Shown piece by piece: positions 7,681-33,588 of a stretch of 64,000 bases of DNA. The DNA comes from Streptacidiphilus melanogenes. GTDB taxonomy: Bacteria > Actinomycetota > Actinomycetes > Streptomycetales > Streptomycetaceae. The notes under the pieces were generated by a model. It was not told the origin of the DNA, ran no database searches, and was given only the letters and a program-made list of their open reading frames with translations. Location of the stretch: the NCBI RefSeq assembly GCF_000787835.1, contig NZ_BBPP01000009.1, positions 1 to 64,000 on the forward strand, written 5' to 3'. Within the stretch, counting starts at the first letter, position 1. Each line of letters starts with the position of its first letter. A program made the translations under genes and the position numbers.

Positions 7681-8925
7681 TCATCGGCGCGGGGCGGTCC
7701 TCGGGAAGTCGACCAGGTCGAGGTAGAGCGGCAGACGGCGTCGCTGCGGCCCCGGGCGGACGCCGCGGGCGTAGGTGAACCGCCGGCCGTCGAGGACGTC
7801 CGTCACCACGTTCTCCGAGGCGGCGCGGCCCCGCAGGAAGAACCGGTCGAAGGCGTAGGGGATGCCCTGGGAGGCCAGGGCCGAGGACCGGTCCATGACC
7901 TGGAAGTGCAGGTGCGGCGCGGAGCTGTTGCCGCTGTTGCCCAGCTGGCCGACCTGCTGTCCGACCCGCAGGTGCTCGCCGAGGTGGACGTGCGCGCGGA
8001 CGCTGCCGGGCTTCATGTGCGCGTACAGGGCGTAGTAGGTGTGGCCGGCGTAGGTGAACTTCTCGATGATGTGGTTGCCGGCGAAGTCCGCGAGCGGCAG
8101 TTGCCCCAGCGGCGGCTCCATCGTCGGCACCTGGTCGGGCAGGCCGTCGCGCAGCTCGACGACCTCGCCGTCGGCCGCGGCGGTGACGGGGGTGCCGTAG
8201 TAGGCGTAACTGGAGATCTTCGTCGCGGGGCCGGTGAAGAGCCGGTCGCGGTCGTTCAGCTTGATGAAGTCGATCGCCGAGCGCTCGGGGAAGTTGGTCC
8301 GTCCGTCGAGGGGGTTGACCGAACCGCGGTGGGCGCTGACGAGTCGGCAGCATCCGTTCGCGTCGAACCACCGCGTGCCCGCCAGCGGCGGGGCGACGAC
8401 GGGAGCGGGGAGGTGGGAGACGGCCGTCGGTGCGACGGTCACGGTGACGTCGGCCGGGACGAGGCCGCCGGCCTGTCCGGTCGGGAACGTCACCCGGATC
8501 CGGTGGACGATCTGGCGGGGGATGTCGGCCCTGCTCGGGACGGTGGCGTCCAGCCAGACGATCCCCTCCTGTCCGGGGCCGAGGACGGCCTGCGGCCCGG
8601 GCGCCGTGCCGATCTTCGCGATGGCGAAGTGCGTGGCGACCTGATCGCCCGTCAGTGAGTCGAGCACCCGCGAGGGGTGCGCGCGGTCGAGGGCCCGGAC
8701 CGAGTCGATCGTCGCGGGGTCGCCGCCGAAGTTCACCAGCAGCAGCTCGTACGGCATGTGGATGCGTCCGTCGGTGCCCTCGACGGGGACCGGGGAGATC
8801 GTCGGTGCGACCGAGACCGCGGTGACCTGGTCGCGCGCGGGGCGCGCGGTCCCCCAGGCGGCGGGAGAGCCGCCCGAAAGGCCGACGACGCCGGCGAGGA
8901 TGGTCGAGGCGAGAGCTCTCCACAT
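7681..8925 (-). CDS. Secreted M23-family metallopeptidase
   Basis: 414 residues with a signal peptide (MWRALASTILAGVVGLSGG...). An N-terminal beta-rich region of about 180 residues precedes the LytM domain. GTPVTAAADGEVVELRDG and ALYAHMKPGSV lead to GNSGNSSAPHLHFQV, where HLHF supplies the second metal-site histidines. The first LytM ligand motif (normally HxGxD) reads ERSAIDF here, so the canonical first His is replaced; this variant occurs in a recognised actinobacterial subgroup, and activity should not be assumed. A strong AGGGGAACGATC precedes the ATG. The likely role is cell-wall peptide cleavage or binding outside the membrane. Confidence 0.85.
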   Translation of the reverse strand: MWRALASTILAGVVGLSGGSPAAWGTARPARDQVTAVSVAPTISPVPVEGTDGRIHMPYELLLVNFGGDPATIDSVRALDRAHPSRVLDSLTGDQVATHFAIAKIGTAPGPQAVLGPGQEGIVWLDATVPSRADIPRQIVHRIRVTFPTGQAGGLVPADVTVTVAPTAVSHLPAPVVAPPLAGTRWFDANGCCRLVSAHRGSVNPLDGRTNFPERSAIDFIKLNDRDRLFTGPATKISSYAYYGTPVTAAADGEVVELRDGLPDQVPTMEPPLGQLPLADFAGNHIIEKFTYAGHTYYALYAHMKPGSVRAHVHLGEHLRVGQQVGQLGNSGNSSAPHLHFQVMDRSSALASQGIPYAFDRFFLRGRAASENVVTDVLDGRRFTYARGVRPGPQRRRLPLYLDLVDFPRTAPRR

Positions 8926-9105
8926 GATCGTTCCCCTGGGGTCGGTGGGGCGCGCGGCCGCGAGGCGCCTGCGCCTGCGCCTTCGCCTTGATTCGGACCG
9001 ACCCTAAGTCGCCTGCGCCCGAGGGGACGCCCGTTGATCCGAGCGTGGGTGTGTCGCCGGCCGTCAGCGCGTCCGCGTCAGTGTGTCCCCGTCGGCTTGT
9101 CGGCC

Positions 9106-27023: not shown

Positions 27024-27820
27024 CCCCCGTGCCGGTGCTGCTCTACCACTCCGTCAGCGACTCGCCGGCGGAGTGGATCGCGCCGTTCACCGTCTCCCCC
27101 GCCGCGTTCACCGAGCAGCTGGACCGGATCGCGGACGCGGGCCTGACCGTCGTCTCGCTGCGCCGTCTGGTCTCGGCGATCCGTGGCGGCCCGGCGCTGC
27201 CCGCGCGACCTGCGGTGCTGACCTTCGACGACGGCTTCGCGGACTTCTACTGGACCGTCGCCCCGCAGCTCCAGTCGCGGGAACTGCCCGCAAGCCTGTT
27301 CGTCACGACCGGGGCCGTCCACCCGCCCGGCGGCTCCCCGTCCGGCAGCCTGCTGGGCCCGGCCGACATGCTGAACTGGCGCCAGATCGCCGGCCTGGAC
27401 GCGGTCGGCATCGAGATCGGCGGCCACTCGGTCACCCACCCCCAGATGGACACCCTCACCAGCCGCGCGCTCTGTGAGGAGCTGCAGGTGTGCAAACAGG
27501 AGCTGGAGGAGGCCCTCGGCCACTCCGTCAGCAGCTTCGCCTACCCCCACGGCTACTCGAGCCCGGCGGTGCGTCGCAAGGTGCTGCGGGCCGGCTTCGA
27601 CTGCGCGTGCGGGGTGGCCAACGCGTTCAGCTCGACCTCGGACGACACGCTGCGGCTGGCCCGACTGACCGTCCGCGCGGACACGACCGCCGCGACGTTC
27701 CAGGGCTGGCTCGAAGGCCGGGGCGCGCCGACCGCCCCCTTCCCGGACCGCTGGTCCACCGTCGGCTGGCGCGCCTACCGCCGTCTGCGCGCCCGACTCG
27801 GCCTGCCCGTACCGTGCTGA
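27020..27820 (+). CDS. Polysaccharide deacetylase (CE4)
   Basis: 266 residues, ATG overlapping the previous stop (ATGA). NodB-homology motifs: VLTFDDGFADFYWTVAPQLQ (motif 1, two Asp), IGGHSVTHPQMDTLT (motif 2, HxxxH metal ligands) and FAYPHGYSSPAVRRKVLRAG (motif 3). The enzyme removes N- or O-acetyl groups from a polysaccharide with a divalent metal. There is no signal peptide, so it acts in the cytosol or on a lipid-linked precursor. Last gene of the operon, coupled to the glycosyltransferases, so it probably modifies the product they make. Confidence 0.92.
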   Translation: MTPVPVLLYHSVSDSPAEWIAPFTVSPAAFTEQLDRIADAGLTVVSLRRLVSAIRGGPALPARPAVLTFDDGFADFYWTVAPQLQSRELPASLFVTTGAVHPPGGSPSGSLLGPADMLNWRQIAGLDAVGIEIGGHSVTHPQMDTLTSRALCEELQVCKQELEEALGHSVSSFAYPHGYSSPAVRRKVLRAGFDCACGVANAFSSTSDDTLRLARLTVRADTTAATFQGWLEGRGAPTAPFPDRWSTVGWRAYRRLRARLGLPVPC

Positions 27821-27833
27821 GCCCGGGTCCGGG

Positions 27834-28079
27834 TCAGACGGGCGTGTGCCATTCCCACTCGTCGGGCCCGCCGCCGCGCCACTCGACCGGACCCGGCTCG
27901 TCGAAGTGGTCCGCGTCCAGCCCGGCACGGCGCATGAACTCGGCGACGTCCGCAGGGTTGTAGGCGTGCCCCACGGCCCGGCCGAGGATGTCGACGCGCC
28001 GGAACGGCTGGTCGCCGTGCCCCACGTCGACAGGATGGACGACCACCTGGGCCGGCTGCTCTTCCGCTGACTCGGTCAT
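27834..28079 (-). CDS. Small conserved hypothetical protein
   Basis: 81 residues from the ATG at 28079 (MTESAEEQPAQVVVHPVDVG). RRVDILGRAVGHAYNPADVA, then EFMRRAGLDADHFDEPGPVEW and a Gly/Trp-rich end (GGGPDEWEWHTPV). It is acidic, with no membrane segment or known domain. It ends 14 bases from the convergent deacetylase gene. I do not recognise the family. Confidence 0.6.
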   Translation of the reverse strand: MTESAEEQPAQVVVHPVDVGHGDQPFRRVDILGRAVGHAYNPADVAEFMRRAGLDADHFDEPGPVEWRGGGPDEWEWHTPV

Positions 28080-28186
28080 CGCACCAGGCTGCCCCAGCCG
28101 CCGCCGCTCGGCACGCGCGGGACCGCCACCCGCCACTCCGCGTGACCCACCCGATCGGACGCCCCGGCGGGCACTCCCCCGCCGCC

Positions 28187-28213
28187 CCTGCTGAGCTGAG
28201 CGCGCTCAGCAGG
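28187..28213 (+). promoter_or_regulatory. Nested inverted repeats in the leader of the 45-residue peptide gene
   Basis: CCTGCTGAG (28187-28195) pairs with CTCAGCAGG (28205-28213) over 9 bp. Inside it CTGAGCGCGCTCAG (28196-28209) is a perfect 14-bp palindrome, so two mutually exclusive hairpins are possible. The site ends 11 bases before the AAGGAG ribosome-binding site. It could be an operator or a translational switch. Confidence 0.5.
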
Positions 28214-28234
28214 AACCGAGCCAAGGAGTGCCCC

Positions 28235-28372
28235 ATGCCGCAGAACCGCATCACCCCGCAGGACGAGGACGCCGACGCCCTCGCCATGGTGGAGGAACCG
28301 GACGCCGACGACCTGTCCGACGAGGACTTCCTCGACGACATGGACGTCGTCCTGTCGGACGAATGGCCGTAA
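28235..28372 (+). CDS. 45-residue, extremely acidic peptide
   Basis: The ATG at 28235 has a strong AAGGAGTGCCCC. About 17 of 45 residues are Asp or Glu and only one is basic (Arg5). After a polar start (MPQNRITPQDEDAD) the sequence continues in acidic blocks and ends VVLSDEWP. There is no Cys, signal peptide or membrane segment. The gene is a complete unit with its own leader hairpin and terminator. It could be a ribosomally made peptide precursor whose leader is acidic, a nucleic-acid mimic, or an anti-regulator. No maturation enzyme is adjacent, so no function is assigned. Confidence 0.6.
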   Translation: MPQNRITPQDEDADALAMVEEPDADDLSDEDFLDDMDVVLSDEWP

Positions 28373-28392
28373 CCGTCCCCACCCCGCTGCCA

Positions 28393-28425
28393 AAGGCTCC
28401 CGCGCGCCCAACACGCGGGAGCCTT
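28393..28425. terminator. Bidirectional terminator
   Basis: AAGGCTCCCGCG (28393-28404) and CGCGGGAGCCTT (28414-28425) form a perfect 12-bp stem with a 9-base loop. It lies between convergent genes and ends with a short T-rich stretch on the plus strand. Confidence 0.85.
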
Positions 28426-28435
28426 GTCCGTTTCT

Positions 28436-28906
28436 CTACAGCCCGAGGTCGGACAGGCCGGGGTGGCCGTCGGGGCGGCGGCCCAGCGGCCAGTGGTACT
28501 TGCGCTCCTCCTCGGCGATGGGCAGGTTGTTGATGCTCGCGTGACGGGCGCGCATGAGGCCGCCCTCGTCGAACTCCCAGTTTTCGTTGCCGTAGGCGCG
28601 GTGCCACTGGCCGGAGTCGTCGTGGTACTCGTAGGCGAACCGGACCGCGATGCGGTTCCTGTCGAACGCCCACAGTTCCTTGATCAGGCGGTACTCCAGC
28701 TCCTGGTTCCACTTGCGGGTCAGGAACCCGACGATCTCGTCGCGGCCGGCGACGAACTCCGCGCGGTTGCGCCACTGCGAGTCGGGGGTGTAGGCGAGGG
28801 CGACCCTCTCGGGGGCACGGGTGTTCCAGCCGTCTTCGGCCTGCCGGACCTTCGTGATCGCCGTTTCCCGGGTGAAGGGCGGGAACGGGGGACGTTGCTC
28901 GGACAT
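28436..28906 (-). CDS. NTF2-like DUF1348 protein
   Basis: 156 residues, ATG at 28906 with GAAGGAGCCCGTC upstream. [60 protein letters not shown] and [20 protein letters not shown] are the DUF1348 signatures of a cone-shaped SnoaL/NTF2 fold. The family has no settled activity; members may act as small-molecule enzymes or stress proteins. It is divergent from a TetR gene with two operators in between, so it is probably that repressor's target. Confidence 0.9.
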
Positions 28907-28940
28907 GACGGGCTCCTTCGGGAGGTTCTTCGCTGTGGGC

Positions 28941-28992
28941 GAGAACGAGCGTTCTCGACTCTGTCCGTTACGCTATGAGAACGCTGGTTCTC
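28941..28992. promoter_or_regulatory. Two TetR operators between the DUF1348 and TetR genes
   Basis: Site 1 is GAGAACGAGCGTTCTC (28941-28956); site 2 is GAGAACGCTGGTTCTC (28977-28992). Both are 16-bp near-perfect inverted repeats with the consensus GAGAAC-N4-GTTCTC, with centres 36 bp apart. Site 2 lies 17 bases before the tetR start codon, so the regulator probably represses itself too. Confidence 0.75.
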
Positions 28993-29009
28993 ACGCAAGG
29001 GGCAGAACG

Positions 29010-29582
29010 ATGGACACCGATCTGGCACGTGAGCGGATCCTGGACGCCGCCGAAGATCTCTTCTACGCACGCGGGATCCAAGCCGTCGGCATGGACGTGA
29101 TCCGCGACGCCTCAGGCGTCACGCTGCGGCGCGTCTACCAGCTGTTCCCCTCCAAGAGCGACCTCGTCGAGGCATACCTGGCCCGCAGGGACACTCGCTG
29201 GCTCCAGAGCCTGGCCGCCTACGTCGACGCCGCCGCGGGAGCCCCGGCAGAGCGGCTGGCGGCCGTCTTCGACTGGCTGGAGAACTGGTTCGCGCAGTCC
29301 GACTTCCACGGATGCGCGTTCATCAACTCCTTCGGCGAGCTGGGCGGCACATCGCCGCAGGTCGCTGCCGCGGCCCGGCGCCACAAGGACACTTTCCACG
29401 CCTACCTGCGCGAGCTGGCGACGGCTGCGGGAGCGACGGCTGACATCGGCACCCAGATCGCCCTGCTGGCCGAGGGGGCCATGACCACCGCCGCCATCTC
29501 AGGCACGCCCGCTCCAGCCCGCCAGGCCAGGCAGGCGGCGCAGACCCTGCTCACGCTCGAGACAGGCAGGGCCAAGCGCTGA
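29010..29582 (+). CDS. TetR-family repressor
   Basis: 190 residues from the ATG at 29010; AAGGGGCAGAACG is upstream. The DNA-binding region is ARERILDAAEDLFYARGIQA, VGMDVIRDASGVTLRRVYQLFPSKSDLVEAYL (RRVYQLFPSK in place of the common YxHFxSK). The C-terminal domain has WLENWFAQSDFHGCAFINSF, as in AcrR-like C-terminal TetR_C_11-type regulators that control small-molecule resistance or metabolism. It probably binds the two upstream GAGAAC-N4-GTTCTC sites and governs the divergent DUF1348 gene. Confidence 0.92.
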   Translation: MDTDLARERILDAAEDLFYARGIQAVGMDVIRDASGVTLRRVYQLFPSKSDLVEAYLARRDTRWLQSLAAYVDAAAGAPAERLAAVFDWLENWFAQSDFHGCAFINSFGELGGTSPQVAAAARRHKDTFHAYLRELATAAGATADIGTQIALLAEGAMTTAAISGTPAPARQARQAAQTLLTLETGRAKR

Positions 29583-29598
29583 CCTGTGTCTGAGGCTC

Positions 29599-30510
29599 CT
29601 AGTGCTGCCAGACCTTCACCCACTGCACCTGCATGTCGGCCTGGTTGACGTTCGCCGGTGGGGCGTACGGGTAGCCGACGGCCAGGTTGAGGATCACTTC
29701 CATGGGCAGGGTGGGGATCTCCGCGGGGTCGGCGATCCGCCAGCGGGCGACGCCGTCGACGTACCAGGTGACGGACTTCGGCTCCCAGTCGACCCCGAAG
29801 ACGTGGAACCCGGCCGGGAAGTTCACCGGGCCGAACCAGTTCTGACGCTGGGCGGCGCCGCCGTCGGACTTCTGCCAGTGGAGGGTGTTCTGCACCGCCT
29901 GGGTGGTGCCGCTGAACTCGGCGATGTCGATCTCCTGCGGGACGTTGTGCTCCGCGGGGAGCAGCCAGAACGCGGGGAACATGCCCGCCTGGGGCGGGAT
30001 GCGGATGGACGCGGCGAAGTAGCCGTGCAGGAAGGTCTCGCGGGGCTGCGCGTTCCAGCTGTCGCGGCCGGTGGTGACCATGCCCGAGGTCCAGGGGTAG
30101 GTCTTGCCGTCGCTGCCCTGCGTGGGCGTGCGCTTGGCCTCCAGGTTGAGTGTGCCGTCGGCGACGGAGACCTGGCCGGGCTGGTACCACTCGAGTTCGC
30201 GGTTGCCCGCGTTGGTGCAGCCGGAGTCGTTCCAGTCGTAGCAGGTGGCCCAGTGGGCGGTGTCGAGGGAGTCGCCGCCGAAGTCGTCGGAGAAGACGAG
30301 GTTCCAGGAGCCTGAGGCCGCAGGGGTGCTGCCGGTGTTGCTCGCGGAGCTCCCCGAGGTTCCGGGCGGCGCTCCCACCACGGAGCCGCCGGACTCACCG
30401 CTCCCGGCTGCCCCGGCTGCCCCGCTGCCGGGAGAGGTGCCGCCGCAGGCCGCAGTCAGGCCCAGCAGCAGGCAGGCTGTCGCGGCCCAGAGCCGGCGGC
30501 CAACGGGCAT
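29599..30510 (-). CDS. GH16 family endo-beta-glucanase-like lipoprotein
   Basis: 303 residues from the ATG at 30510, with a very strong AGGAGGTGGGTCCG. The N-terminus RRLWAATACLLLGLTAAC has a lipobox (LTAAC), followed by a Gly/Ser-rich linker. The GH16 domain has FSDDFGGDSLDTAHW, GNRELEWYQPGQVSVADGTL and the catalytic QEIDIAEFSG (ExDxxE, nucleophile and acid/base Glu both present), then FHVFGVDWEPKSVTWYVDGV. The closest activities are endo-1,3- or 1,3-1,4-beta-glucanase. It is anchored outside the cell membrane and degrades beta-glucan for nutrition or defence. Confidence 0.93.
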   Translation of the reverse strand: MPVGRRLWAATACLLLGLTAACGGTSPGSGAAGAAGSGESGGSVVGAPPGTSGSSASNTGSTPAASGSWNLVFSDDFGGDSLDTAHWATCYDWNDSGCTNAGNRELEWYQPGQVSVADGTLNLEAKRTPTQGSDGKTYPWTSGMVTTGRDSWNAQPRETFLHGYFAASIRIPPQAGMFPAFWLLPAEHNVPQEIDIAEFSGTTQAVQNTLHWQKSDGGAAQRQNWFGPVNFPAGFHVFGVDWEPKSVTWYVDGVARWRIADPAEIPTLPMEVILNLAVGYPYAPPANVNQADMQVQWVKVWQH

Positions 30511-30684: not shown

Positions 30685-33588
30685 TCATCGGACCACGCTC
30701 CCCGCCCGCCCGTGCCGGTCCCGCCCGTGCCTCATCGGGCCGTGCCTCATCGGGCCGTGAGTCTCCGGAACATGCCGGTCCAGACCGTGCGCCTCCAGGC
30801 TGTGCGCGGCCGTCAGGTCGGCGTTCTCCAGCGCCAGCCGGGCGAGCCGCCGCAGGGCGCCGCGTCGGCCCGCCTCCGGCAGGGCCAGGACCGCGAGCAC
30901 GGCTCGCGTCTCGTGCGGCAGCGAGGGCGGACGGCAGATGTGGCAGTGCCCCGGACGGTGGCCGAGGAGCGCGGCGACGGCGTCGGCCAGGCCGGCCTGG
31001 TAGGCGCCGGGGGCGACGTGGATGCCGGGCTCGGCCCACTTCCGTGCCTGCGCGGGCACCACGCCGTTGCGCGACCAGCGCAGCAGCGGCAGGTCGGCCG
31101 GACCTCCGCCGACCGCGAGCACCGGCGGCTCCGCGGGCTCGCCCATCAGCGCGAGCAGCGCTCGCACGCCCTCCGCTGTGTCCGCGCCGCGGGGCACGAA
31201 GTCGGTCTGCTCGGCGCCGGGCACGACGTCGAAGAGGCGAGCGAACCGACGCCCCCTCAGCAGCTCGGCGGTCTCGGCCTCGGGCAGCCCGGTGCGCCGC
31301 CCGTCCGCGCGGCGGACCGAGGCGCGCACGCACCAGTGCGACAGCGGGTCGGTCTCGTGGCCCGGTCGGGAGGCGAGCAGGACGGCCAGCCCGGCGTCGC
31401 CCTCGCCGCGCCGCGCGTCGTCGAGGACCACGCGGACGCGCCCGCTGCCCGCGTCGACGCAGGCCGCGCCGTACTCCCCCACGCCGCCCGCCATTCCGTA
31501 GGCCGCACAGCGGTCGCCCACCTCGGCGAGGGAACGGCCCGTAGCCGGCAGCGCCCGGAAGCCGTGGGCGCGCAGGGCTCGCAGGGCCATGACCCCGAGC
31601 GGGGAGGCGGCGGGAAAGCCGAGGACGTCGGTCTCCAGCACGCCGTCGACGTCGAACACGCACCACCCGCGTGGCTCGGCCGGAGCCCGCCGGTCGAGGT
31701 CGGCCAGCAGGGCGCCCGCGAGGAACCGCTGCGCGGCTCTGGCCTGCGCCCTTCGCGCCCGGGCCCGCAGCATCGGGCCGTCGGCTGCGCCCGCCCCGGC
31801 CGTGAGCCGGACCGTGTTGCGGGCCTGGACCAGCTGGAACAGGAACCAGGATGCCGGGTCGACGCGACGGCCGGTCAGCAGGGTGAAGTGGCGCAGCAGT
31901 TCCCGTTCGGCCTCGTCGTCCGGCGGGCCGTGGGCGACCGCGCCGGCCAGGTCGTAGACGGCGTCGTAGCAGGCCAGGTCGAGGTCGGCGAAGCCGCCCT
32001 CCGCCCAGTCCAGCTTGCGACCGGCGCCGTCGCGGTCCGCCGCCCAGTGCTCGGGGGCGGTGCGGCCGTCGACGAGGCACGGCTGCCGCGCGGACGCGAG
32101 CAGATGCCGCGTCAACGGCTGGACGAGCGCGGGCCGCAGCAGCACGGCGGCCCGGCCGAGCGCGGGGGCGAGCGTCCGCGCGGCGGACTCCCAGACGGGG
32201 TCGCGCCCGCCGAGCCGCCCGCTGCGGTCCTCGGGCAGCGGGAGCCTGCGCTCGCGCTCCGCCAGGTAGACGGCCAGCTCGCGCGGTTCGACGGGCTGCT
32301 GCTGACCGCCTGCGGGACCGGACAGACCGGGCGGACCGGCCGGACCGCCTGCCGGGCGGTCGCGGAGCAGCACGCCGTCGGCGAAGCCGTACACGCGCGG
32401 GACGAGCCCGTCGAGGGCCGCTGCCGTGGCCGGGGCGAGCCGTCCGAACCGGCCGACGCCGGTCCATTCGGCGCACAGGGCGAGCTCTTCGCGCACGCCG
32501 TCGCGGTGTTCGACGACGGCGTCGACGGGGACGCAGAGGTGTCGGGTGCGCGCGACCGGCCCGGGCGCAACAGCCCGCACGTCGAGCACCCGCACGCCCG
32601 TCAGCAGCCGCGGCAGCAGCGCCGCGAGCACGCGCGGCGCGAGCAGGGTCGGCACGTGCCAGGCGGATCCCGGCAGCATCACGCAGTCGTGGCGGGCCAG
32701 CCGCTCCGGGACGACGGCCGGGTCGGCGAAGCAGGCGAAGACGGGGACGATCGCGGCCGCCGGAACCCCCACGCGCTGCAGCGCGGCCGCTGCTTCGGCG
32801 AGCGCGCCGCCGGTGACCGGCGGCTCGTCCACCAGCAGCACGCGCGCGGCCGACGATGCGCCGGGAGGCGGCGGGAAGCCGGGCCGGGTCGTGGCCACGG
32901 CGACACGGCGGTACCCCAAACCGCGCAGGGCCGCTGCCAGCAGCGGCGCGAGGTAGCTGCCGGAGGTGCGGACGCCGAGCACCAGCATCGGCGGCTCCCG
33001 GGCGGGGTAGACCCGGGCGAAGCGGCGGGCCAGCTCGGCGATGTCGTTCGGGTGCTGGTCGAAGCTGCGGAAGCAGGCGGGCGGGCGCAGCAGATCCCGC
33101 CCGACGAGCCGCGCGGCGGGACCTGGCCCGGCCAGGACGCGTCCGGCGGTGACGGCTCCGGCGTCGTGTCCCAGGGCCAGGCCCGCGAGCGTCAGTGTCA
33201 GCCGCGTCGCCTCCCGGGCCCAGGCGCGCAGCGAGCGGGTCGGCGGGGCCGCCCGGTATCCCGCGCCGACGGCGTCGAGCGCGCGGGAGGCGAGGCGCAG
33301 CGCGGGACGCACCCCGGGACCTTCGGCCCCGTGTTGGGTCAGGTGGACGAGCAGACGGCGCGTCGGCCAGCTGACCCCGTCGATCCGGTCCTCGACGATC
33401 TGCGACGCCCCAGCCGACCACAGGAACGCGTCCAGCCACGCGTCCGCGGCGAGCGCCGCGCACAGACCACCCAGCGCCTCGTCCAGCGTCGCAAACGGGT
33501 CCGGCACCAAGGCGCCCGTCTGCCCGAACGAGGCCGGGGCCCCGGCCGCGCCCGTCGGGCTCGCCTCGCTCCTGGTCGGGCTCATCAT
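30685..33588 (-). CDS. Multidomain PRTase / kinase-like / HAD phosphatase fusion
   Basis: 967 residues. Visible order: an N-terminal helical region (1-195); a type-I phosphoribosyltransferase-like domain (about 196-300) with MLVLGVRTSGSYLAPLLAAA and RVLLVDEPPVTGGALAEAAA, where the usual acidic DD-TGGT site reads DEPPVTGGA; a middle region (about 395-600) with CLVDGRTAPEHW and RKLDWAEGGFADLDLACYDA, resembling the end of an aminoglycoside-phosphotransferase/kinase fold; and a HAD domain (about 640-880) with the nucleophile motif CVFDVDGVLET, PATGRSLAEVGDRCAAYGMA and VGGGPADLPLL. A CHIC motif at 881-884 and a His/Arg-rich repeat tail (GPMRHGPMRHG) end the protein. It resembles the PRTase and HAD enzymes of tellurite-type (Ter) nucleoside biosynthesis operons, but as one fused polypeptide. 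Domain calls are from motifs only. Confidence 0.7.
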   Translation of the reverse strand: MMSPTRSEASPTGAAGAPASFGQTGALVPDPFATLDEALGGLCAALAADAWLDAFLWSAGASQIVEDRIDGVSWPTRRLLVHLTQHGAEGPGVRPALRLASRALDAVGAGYRAAPPTRSLRAWAREATRLTLTLAGLALGHDAGAVTAGRVLAGPGPAARLVGRDLLRPPACFRSFDQHPNDIAELARRFARVYPAREPPMLVLGVRTSGSYLAPLLAAALRGLGYRRVAVATTRPGFPPPPGASSAARVLLVDEPPVTGGALAEAAAALQRVGVPAAAIVPVFACFADPAVVPERLARHDCVMLPGSAWHVPTLLAPRVLAALLPRLLTGVRVLDVRAVAPGPVARTRHLCVPVDAVVEHRDGVREELALCAEWTGVGRFGRLAPATAAALDGLVPRVYGFADGVLLRDRPAGGPAGPPGLSGPAGGQQQPVEPRELAVYLAERERRLPLPEDRSGRLGGRDPVWESAARTLAPALGRAAVLLRPALVQPLTRHLLASARQPCLVDGRTAPEHWAADRDGAGRKLDWAEGGFADLDLACYDAVYDLAGAVAHGPPDDEAERELLRHFTLLTGRRVDPASWFLFQLVQARNTVRLTAGAGAADGPMLRARARRAQARAAQRFLAGALLADLDRRAPAEPRGWCVFDVDGVLETDVLGFPAASPLGVMALRALRAHGFRALPATGRSLAEVGDRCAAYGMAGGVGEYGAACVDAGSGRVRVVLDDARRGEGDAGLAVLLASRPGHETDPLSHWCVRASVRRADGRRTGLPEAETAELLRGRRFARLFDVVPGAEQTDFVPRGADTAEGVRALLALMGEPAEPPVLAVGGGPADLPLLRWSRNGVVPAQARKWAEPGIHVAPGAYQAGLADAVAALLGHRPGHCHICRPPSLPHETRAVLAVLALPEAGRRGALRRLARLALENADLTAAHSLEAHGLDRHVPETHGPMRHGPMRHGRDRHGRAGSVVR
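30726..30755 (-). repeat. 15-bp tandem duplication in the 3' end of the fusion gene
   Basis: CGTGCCTCATCGGGC occurs twice in tandem (30726-30740 and 30741-30755), and a further partial copy follows. It keeps the frame and encodes the repeated GPMRH pentapeptide at the C-terminus. Confidence 0.85.

Follow-up and report, generated by a model that had tools for sequence, protein, structure and literature searches.

In relatives of Streptomyces, development and antibiotic production are under the control of small acidic proteins whose mode of action is poorly understood. The subject here is a 45-codon open reading frame (ORF) in Streptacidiphilus melanogenes and the role that its acidic product might have. 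The ORF lies in a 64,000-nucleotide stretch of contig NZ_BBPP01000009.1, the whole of which is called the window here. The first-pass annotation had described it as a self-contained gene for a regulated small peptide, and the coordinates, residue counts, ribosome-binding site (RBS) and both hairpins that it gave were all present in the window sequence. The features of the locus are listed below.

27824..28430, no strand: module comprising the VVHP gene, the two-box element, the peptide gene and the terminator; extent approximate, as is the right boundary
27834..28079, (-) strand: VVHP gene, 81 aa, divergent and head to head with box 1; member of an unnamed family
28142..28172, (+) strand: box 1 of the element, window sequence GTGACCCACCCGATCGGACGCCCCGGCGGGC; found at 16 loci in 5 genomes
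28187..28213, (+) strand: leader hairpin with a 10-bp stem, arms CCTGCTGAGC and GCTCAGCAGG; specific to the window
28189..28201, (+) strand: box 2 of the element, window sequence TGCTGAGCTGAGC; spaced exactly 41 nt from CACCCG in box 1
28223..28228, (+) strand: ribosome-binding site AAGGAG, 6 nt 5' of the ATG
28235..28372, (+) strand: acidic-peptide ORF, 45 codons and a stop; 10 further homologous loci, frame kept
28393..28425, (+) strand: terminator hairpin with a perfect 12-bp stem and a 9-nt loop, z about -4 to -5

The peptide gene and its family

The ORF starts with ATG at 28235, stops with TAA at 28370-28372 and has a GC3 of 0.96. Its 45-aa product, MPQNRITPQDEDADALAMVEEPDADDLSDEDFLDDMDVVLSDEWP, contains 12 D and 5 E (17 Asp/Glu) with a single R, carries a net charge of -16, and ends in the segment VVLSDEWP. 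Searches of the window's own genome and of its genus recovered one further copy in the former and homologues in four other species; together with copies reached via the promoter element described below, the family comprises 11 members in five Streptacidiphilus species. An exact-pattern scan of named genomes gave matches in S. anmyonensis, S. pinicola and S. neutrinimicus. The ten other members, at other loci, are 38-82% identical to the window peptide, the S. neutrinimicus ortholog being 82% identical with an E value of 9e-18. All share the N-terminus MPQNGxxPxD and the C-terminus [DE][DE]xFLDDLxxVLxDE, the latter followed by a terminal WP in 5 of the 11 and lacking it in 6, and between these conserved ends lies an acidic, variable middle. 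Members are 42-57 residues long, every length difference being a multiple of 3, and net charge runs from -12 to -20 across all 11.

A strong hairpin follows the stop codon at 9 of the 11 copies (z -3.4 to -6.8), which supports an independent, monocistronic transcript. The window hairpin at 28393-28425 scores z -4.8; a scan for consensus terminators made no call there because the tail, GTCCGTTTCT, falls short of a strict run of T. The ORF is more than a chance occurrence because of the S. neutrinimicus ortholog, the 11-member family, the 16-locus promoter and the hairpin downstream of nine copies; the 11 copies and 16 promoter sites between them rule out a chance ORF. Judged by this comparison, the (+) strand ORF at 28235-28372 is a genuine gene for a tiny, very acidic protein that had no earlier family name. 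The idea of a self-contained, regulated small-peptide gene thereby gains strong support, with start, frame, RBS and C-terminus kept in 11 of 11 copies, the two-box promoter in front of all 11, and a strong terminator-type hairpin behind nine. The first-pass annotation had looked to related genomes for conservation of the start, the hairpin and the frame; start and frame are kept, and the leader hairpin is not.

We calculated dN/dS values of 0.36 for the ortholog pair and 0.27-1.05 for paralogues. Purifying selection on the peptide, as estimated from these alignments, is moderate only, which is expected for a young, mostly flexible family. Membership in a known family was considered and rejected, as searches of Pfam, NCBIfam, PHROGs and the PDB with the peptide gave nothing convincing. 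At E<=1, Pfam returned 0 families for all 11 members, DUF397 included, the sole PHROGs match (E 0.064) came from one member only, and no solved structure resembling the peptide was found in the PDB. Structure prediction placed a C-terminal helix at residues 29-42, with a pLDDT of ~78 for residues 31-40 and a pTM of 0.24, which is low confidence. The hydrophobic moment of this helix, averaged over the 11 copies, exceeded that of all 1000 shuffles, a result that is supportive only, the copies being related. The predicted helix, at low confidence, would be acidic, amphipathic and conserved, with the motif [DE][DE]xFLDDLxxVLxDE(WP).

We found no homologue outside Streptacidiphilus in 200 genomes of the family and 394 of the class (the two samples overlap partly and together hold ~570 genomes), and the collections of phages (50,697 records) and plasmids (72,556), like IMG/VR, gave no match. 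Of the 14 Streptacidiphilus genomes, 9 lack both the peptide family and the element. In an rpoB tree all five carriers fall within one seven-species clade whose other two species (G004 and G006) lack the element, a distribution consistent with one origin and two losses. Within the genomes searched, then, the peptide is a new family found only in five species of one Streptacidiphilus clade.

The two-box element and its regulon

The alignment of DNA upstream of the peptide copies contains a block that is conserved better than most of the coding sequence. This block resolves into two boxes, with the consensus GTGACCCACCCGATCGGACGcGACGaCGcGC for box 1 and TGCTGWGCTGGGC for box 2. The distance from the CACCCG of box 1 to the TGCTG of box 2 is 41 nt in 16/16 sites, whereas start codons follow box 2 at distances of 40-48. 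That the boxes keep a constant spacing while the start codon shifts relative to them points to a promoter or operator acting at the DNA level and not to an RNA element. Box 2 would occupy a -10-like position; a promoter consensus scan found no sigma-70 consensus.

A first model of the element scored strongly at 16 sites, and the genomes that contain them are precisely the five carriers. A refined model of 67 positions recovered these 16 again, scoring 46.8-68.4 bits against 24.4 bits for the match ranked next. Weak matches of the first model outside the genus, such as those in genomes G078 and G060 with CACCCGATCGGGTGAG, had no similar ORF and were judged to be chance. The short motif CACCCGATCGGACG alone was too noisy to define the regulon, and the long model was required.

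Behind the 16 elements lie 11 acidic-peptide genes, 4 genes for an ABM-like protein and 1 for a TMEM175-type channel, each preceded by a purine-rich RBS. Since different ORFs stand behind one element, sequence comparison places the 11 peptide genes and the 5 others in one regulon with 2-6 members per genome. As the peptide genes have a distinctive control sequence in common, the window gene probably belongs to a small regulatory network. The acidic family arose recently, on a single branch of the genus, and its promoter signature is unusually clear. The clarity of that signature allows the regulon to be enumerated and its controller to be sought by presence and absence across 14 related genomes, and the birth of a small-protein regulatory circuit becomes directly testable.

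The ABM-like genes (loci G007d, G008c, G009b and G002f) encode a protein of ~94 aa (MAVLMEIDFPGVTAEQYDELDKRAGTRA...). They were located in four species at L084:3105-3389, L085:8473-8757, L086:8665-8949 and L087:8790-9074, the last two approximately, and the one member scanned against Pfam had no significant match. The channel gene, a TMEM175-type potassium channel homologue at L083:1351-2010 (-) in S. anmyonensis, sits just behind one copy of the element. At the same locus a short ORF runs from the element's own ATG (MPGNGIAGG...) and is unlike the peptide after the first residues.

The window leader at 28187-28213 folds at -20.8 kcal/mol with z -2.6, and its nested hairpins had been put forward as a regulatory feature. 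Box 2 supplies the 5' arm, and the other copies do not preserve the 3' arm, GCTCAGCAGG; regulation by RNA structure is therefore not supported. Four homologous leaders folded differently, with z values of -0.9 to +0.2 that are not significant, and a search for Rfam RNAs in the window found none, so that the leader hairpin was set aside as a riboregulator. By this comparison it is a by-product of box 2, present in the window alone.

The VVHP gene and the surroundings of the locus

Divergent from the peptide gene stands a gene of the VVHP family, whose members are ~80 aa long with the consensus VVVHPV..RRVDILG..VG.A...DV.EF.RRAGLD...VEW.GGGPDVW. A VVHP gene lies head to head with box 1 at 8/16 elements, one of these genes carrying a frameshift, and at a ninth element only an N-terminal remnant is left. 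The decayed genes are the frameshifted one in S. pinicola (L085 ~8820-9100) and the N-terminal part in S. anmyonensis (L087 ~8400-8690). VVHP is a probable functional neighbour of the peptide gene. We rejected it as an obligate partner, as most VVHP copies lack the two-box element; the family occurs in 71/101 Streptomycetaceae genomes sampled, at 1-14 copies each. Pfam and NCBIfam gave no match for VVHP. Its predicted fold is beta-beta-beta-alpha (pLDDT 81), and a fold search of the PDB with this model returned no match better than E 0.55. The VVHP copies on annotated plasmids are all labelled 'hypothetical protein' and have no common neighbours.

Among the matches listed, 10/67 VVHP genes lie <=5 kb from a DUF6879 gene where 0.5 would be expected (20-fold), and 3/16 elements lie <=7 kb from one where 0.1 would be expected. 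At the loci inspected, the DUF6879 genes adjoin XRE/DUF5753 regulators, so that an unnamed and widespread family is placed beside XRE-DUF6879 regulators. The three elements near XRE-DUF6879 pairs are two ABM loci and one peptide locus, and no XRE gene was found closer than 6.5 kb to the peptide copy in the window. The proximity may reflect shared variable regions only.

Gene calls around the loci came from a simple codon-usage caller. In the window the order is a polysaccharide deacetylase gene, the module, a DUF1348-TetR pair and a GH16 gene. In the sister species G004 a 12-bp gap separates the deacetylase gene from the GH16 gene; S. neutrinimicus has VVHP and the peptide at the same place without DUF1348-TetR, and S. 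anmyonensis has an unrelated small gene at the deacetylase-GH16 site. Because of this comparison, insertion of the module in the window's lineage appears most likely. The interval from deacetylase to GH16 (27820-29600) is a hypervariable spot in which the small genes differ among Streptacidiphilus species. The DUF1348-TetR pair of the window occupies 28436-29582; that of S. anmyonensis is at another locus (L009), where it adjoins a peptide copy on the opposite side. Further along the window, a predicted 967-aa protein at 30685-33588 (-) had no Pfam match at E<=0.001. Matches to a defence library near the elements involved just a few members.

Possible roles of the peptide

We prefer, as a possible role, the binding of another protein, either a regulator or the polymerase. 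The form of this reading that we rate highest, at a probability of a little under 0.4, has the peptide acting in trans as an acidic docking protein that would bind a regulator through its C-terminal helix and antagonise it, in the manner proposed for BldB/DUF397 proteins or for SinI. Box 1 would be bound by a dedicated activator, repressor or alternative sigma factor confined to the carrier species. The peptide so produced would be mostly flexible, its conserved acidic amphipathic helix at the C-terminus serving as the docking part, and this helix would settle onto the basic surface of a DNA-binding regulator and antagonise it. The target would probably be a regulator of the XRE/DUF5753 type encoded near several of the loci, or else the reader of box 1 itself. 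In favour of docking we counted the 11-copy family, the 16-site regulon, the hairpins behind nine copies, the conserved ends, the helix, the DUF6879 proximity and the single-clade origin; against it, XRE-DUF6879 pairs lie near only 3/16 elements, selection is moderate, pTM is 0.24, and there was no Pfam, NCBIfam or PDB match. A wider version, which we regard as doubtful, is a lineage-specific circuit in which a transcription factor or alternative sigma factor reads the new 41-nt-spaced two-box promoter and drives spreading acidic mini-proteins, often divergent from VVHP, that rewire XRE-type regulators. Such a circuit, if real, would amount to a layer of small-protein regulation that parallels BldB/WhiJ and is evolutionarily separate from it.

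SinI-type proteins of Bacillus are short antagonists of XRE repressors, and the peptide is likened to them as a functional analogue only, on the ground that a protein of similar shortness is proposed here to use a helix for docking onto an XRE regulator. For small acidic partners of WhiJ-type XRE regulators, docking and antagonism have been proposed (PMC6262351), and the biology of BldB and the other small acidic DUF397 proteins of Streptomyces has been described (PMC10294661). Like these, the peptide is a small acidic cytoplasmic protein, multicopy and from the same bacterial family, encoded at variable loci among small neighbour genes with XRE/DUF5753 regulators near some of them. Unlike them, it has 45 aa where BldB-type proteins have about 63-96, its window copy is not adjacent to an XRE gene, it has its own two-box promoter, and it was found in five species only, whereas the BldB family is widespread. 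Since none of the 11 members matched DUF397 at E<=1, the comparison with BldB is functional only.

The locus structure suggests another, rather unlikely, explanation, in which VVHP and the peptide, encoded divergently and sharing a single operator, make up a mobile module of the selfish or addictive type that spreads between loci. The peptide would then neutralise or regulate VVHP or else the expression of the module itself. VVHP is head to head with the element at 8/16 loci, the pair sits between genes that are adjacent in a sister species, copies occur at unrelated sites and VVHP is decayed at two elements. Yet VVHP, like the peptide, is an acidic protein overall, VVHP is missing from half of the elements, dozens of genomes carry VVHP without the peptide, and no terminal repeats were found at the window copy. 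Less likely again is a DNA mimic or polymerase/sigma-binding peptide that competes with DNA through bulk negative charge. A net charge of -12 or beyond in every member would suit this; the conserved positions, however, are specific (F/Y, L/M, V, L and DE(WP)) and not a matter of bulk charge alone, no solved structure or phage protein family was matched, and the structure model is of low confidence. The first-pass annotation had raised polymerase/sigma binding and DNA mimicry together: protein binding, to a regulator or polymerase, survives as our preferred reading, and DNA mimicry is the less probable of the two. Streptacidiphilus is acid-tolerant and grows in acid soils, a point for an acid-stress or ion-homeostasis protein, a charge buffer or chaperone-like factor co-regulated with the TMEM175-type channel and the ABM-like protein. 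One element drives the TMEM175 homologue and four an ABM-like protein, but the peptide is missing from most of the genus (9/14 genomes) and the TMEM175 case is single, and we consider this role distinctly improbable.

The suggestion of a ribosomal peptide (RiPP) precursor, with the acidic part as leader and VVLSDEWP as core, ranks lower still. The gene resembles precursors with acidic leaders in being small, acidic, regulated and, as predicted from its strong RBS, strongly translated, and the C-terminal segment is conserved. Among the 130 proteins within ~5 kb of the 16 elements, however, no RiPP modifying enzyme recurs in the 25 commonest families per library, a listing that a singleton or trans-acting enzyme would escape. 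The putative core is short, itself acidic, without Cys or a Ser/Thr cluster, and loses its WP in 6/11 copies, and variation is greatest in the middle, as would not be expected of a leader/core layout; these sequence features count against the proposal. Finally, we give hardly any weight to a leader ORF or RNA attenuator acting in cis, where it would be the hairpins and not the peptide that matter. The window does have a leader hairpin and a terminator, but the former is not conserved, downstream genes differ between loci with no conserved co-directional one among them, the terminator lies 3' of the ORF, and it is the amino-acid sequence that is conserved, at both ends.
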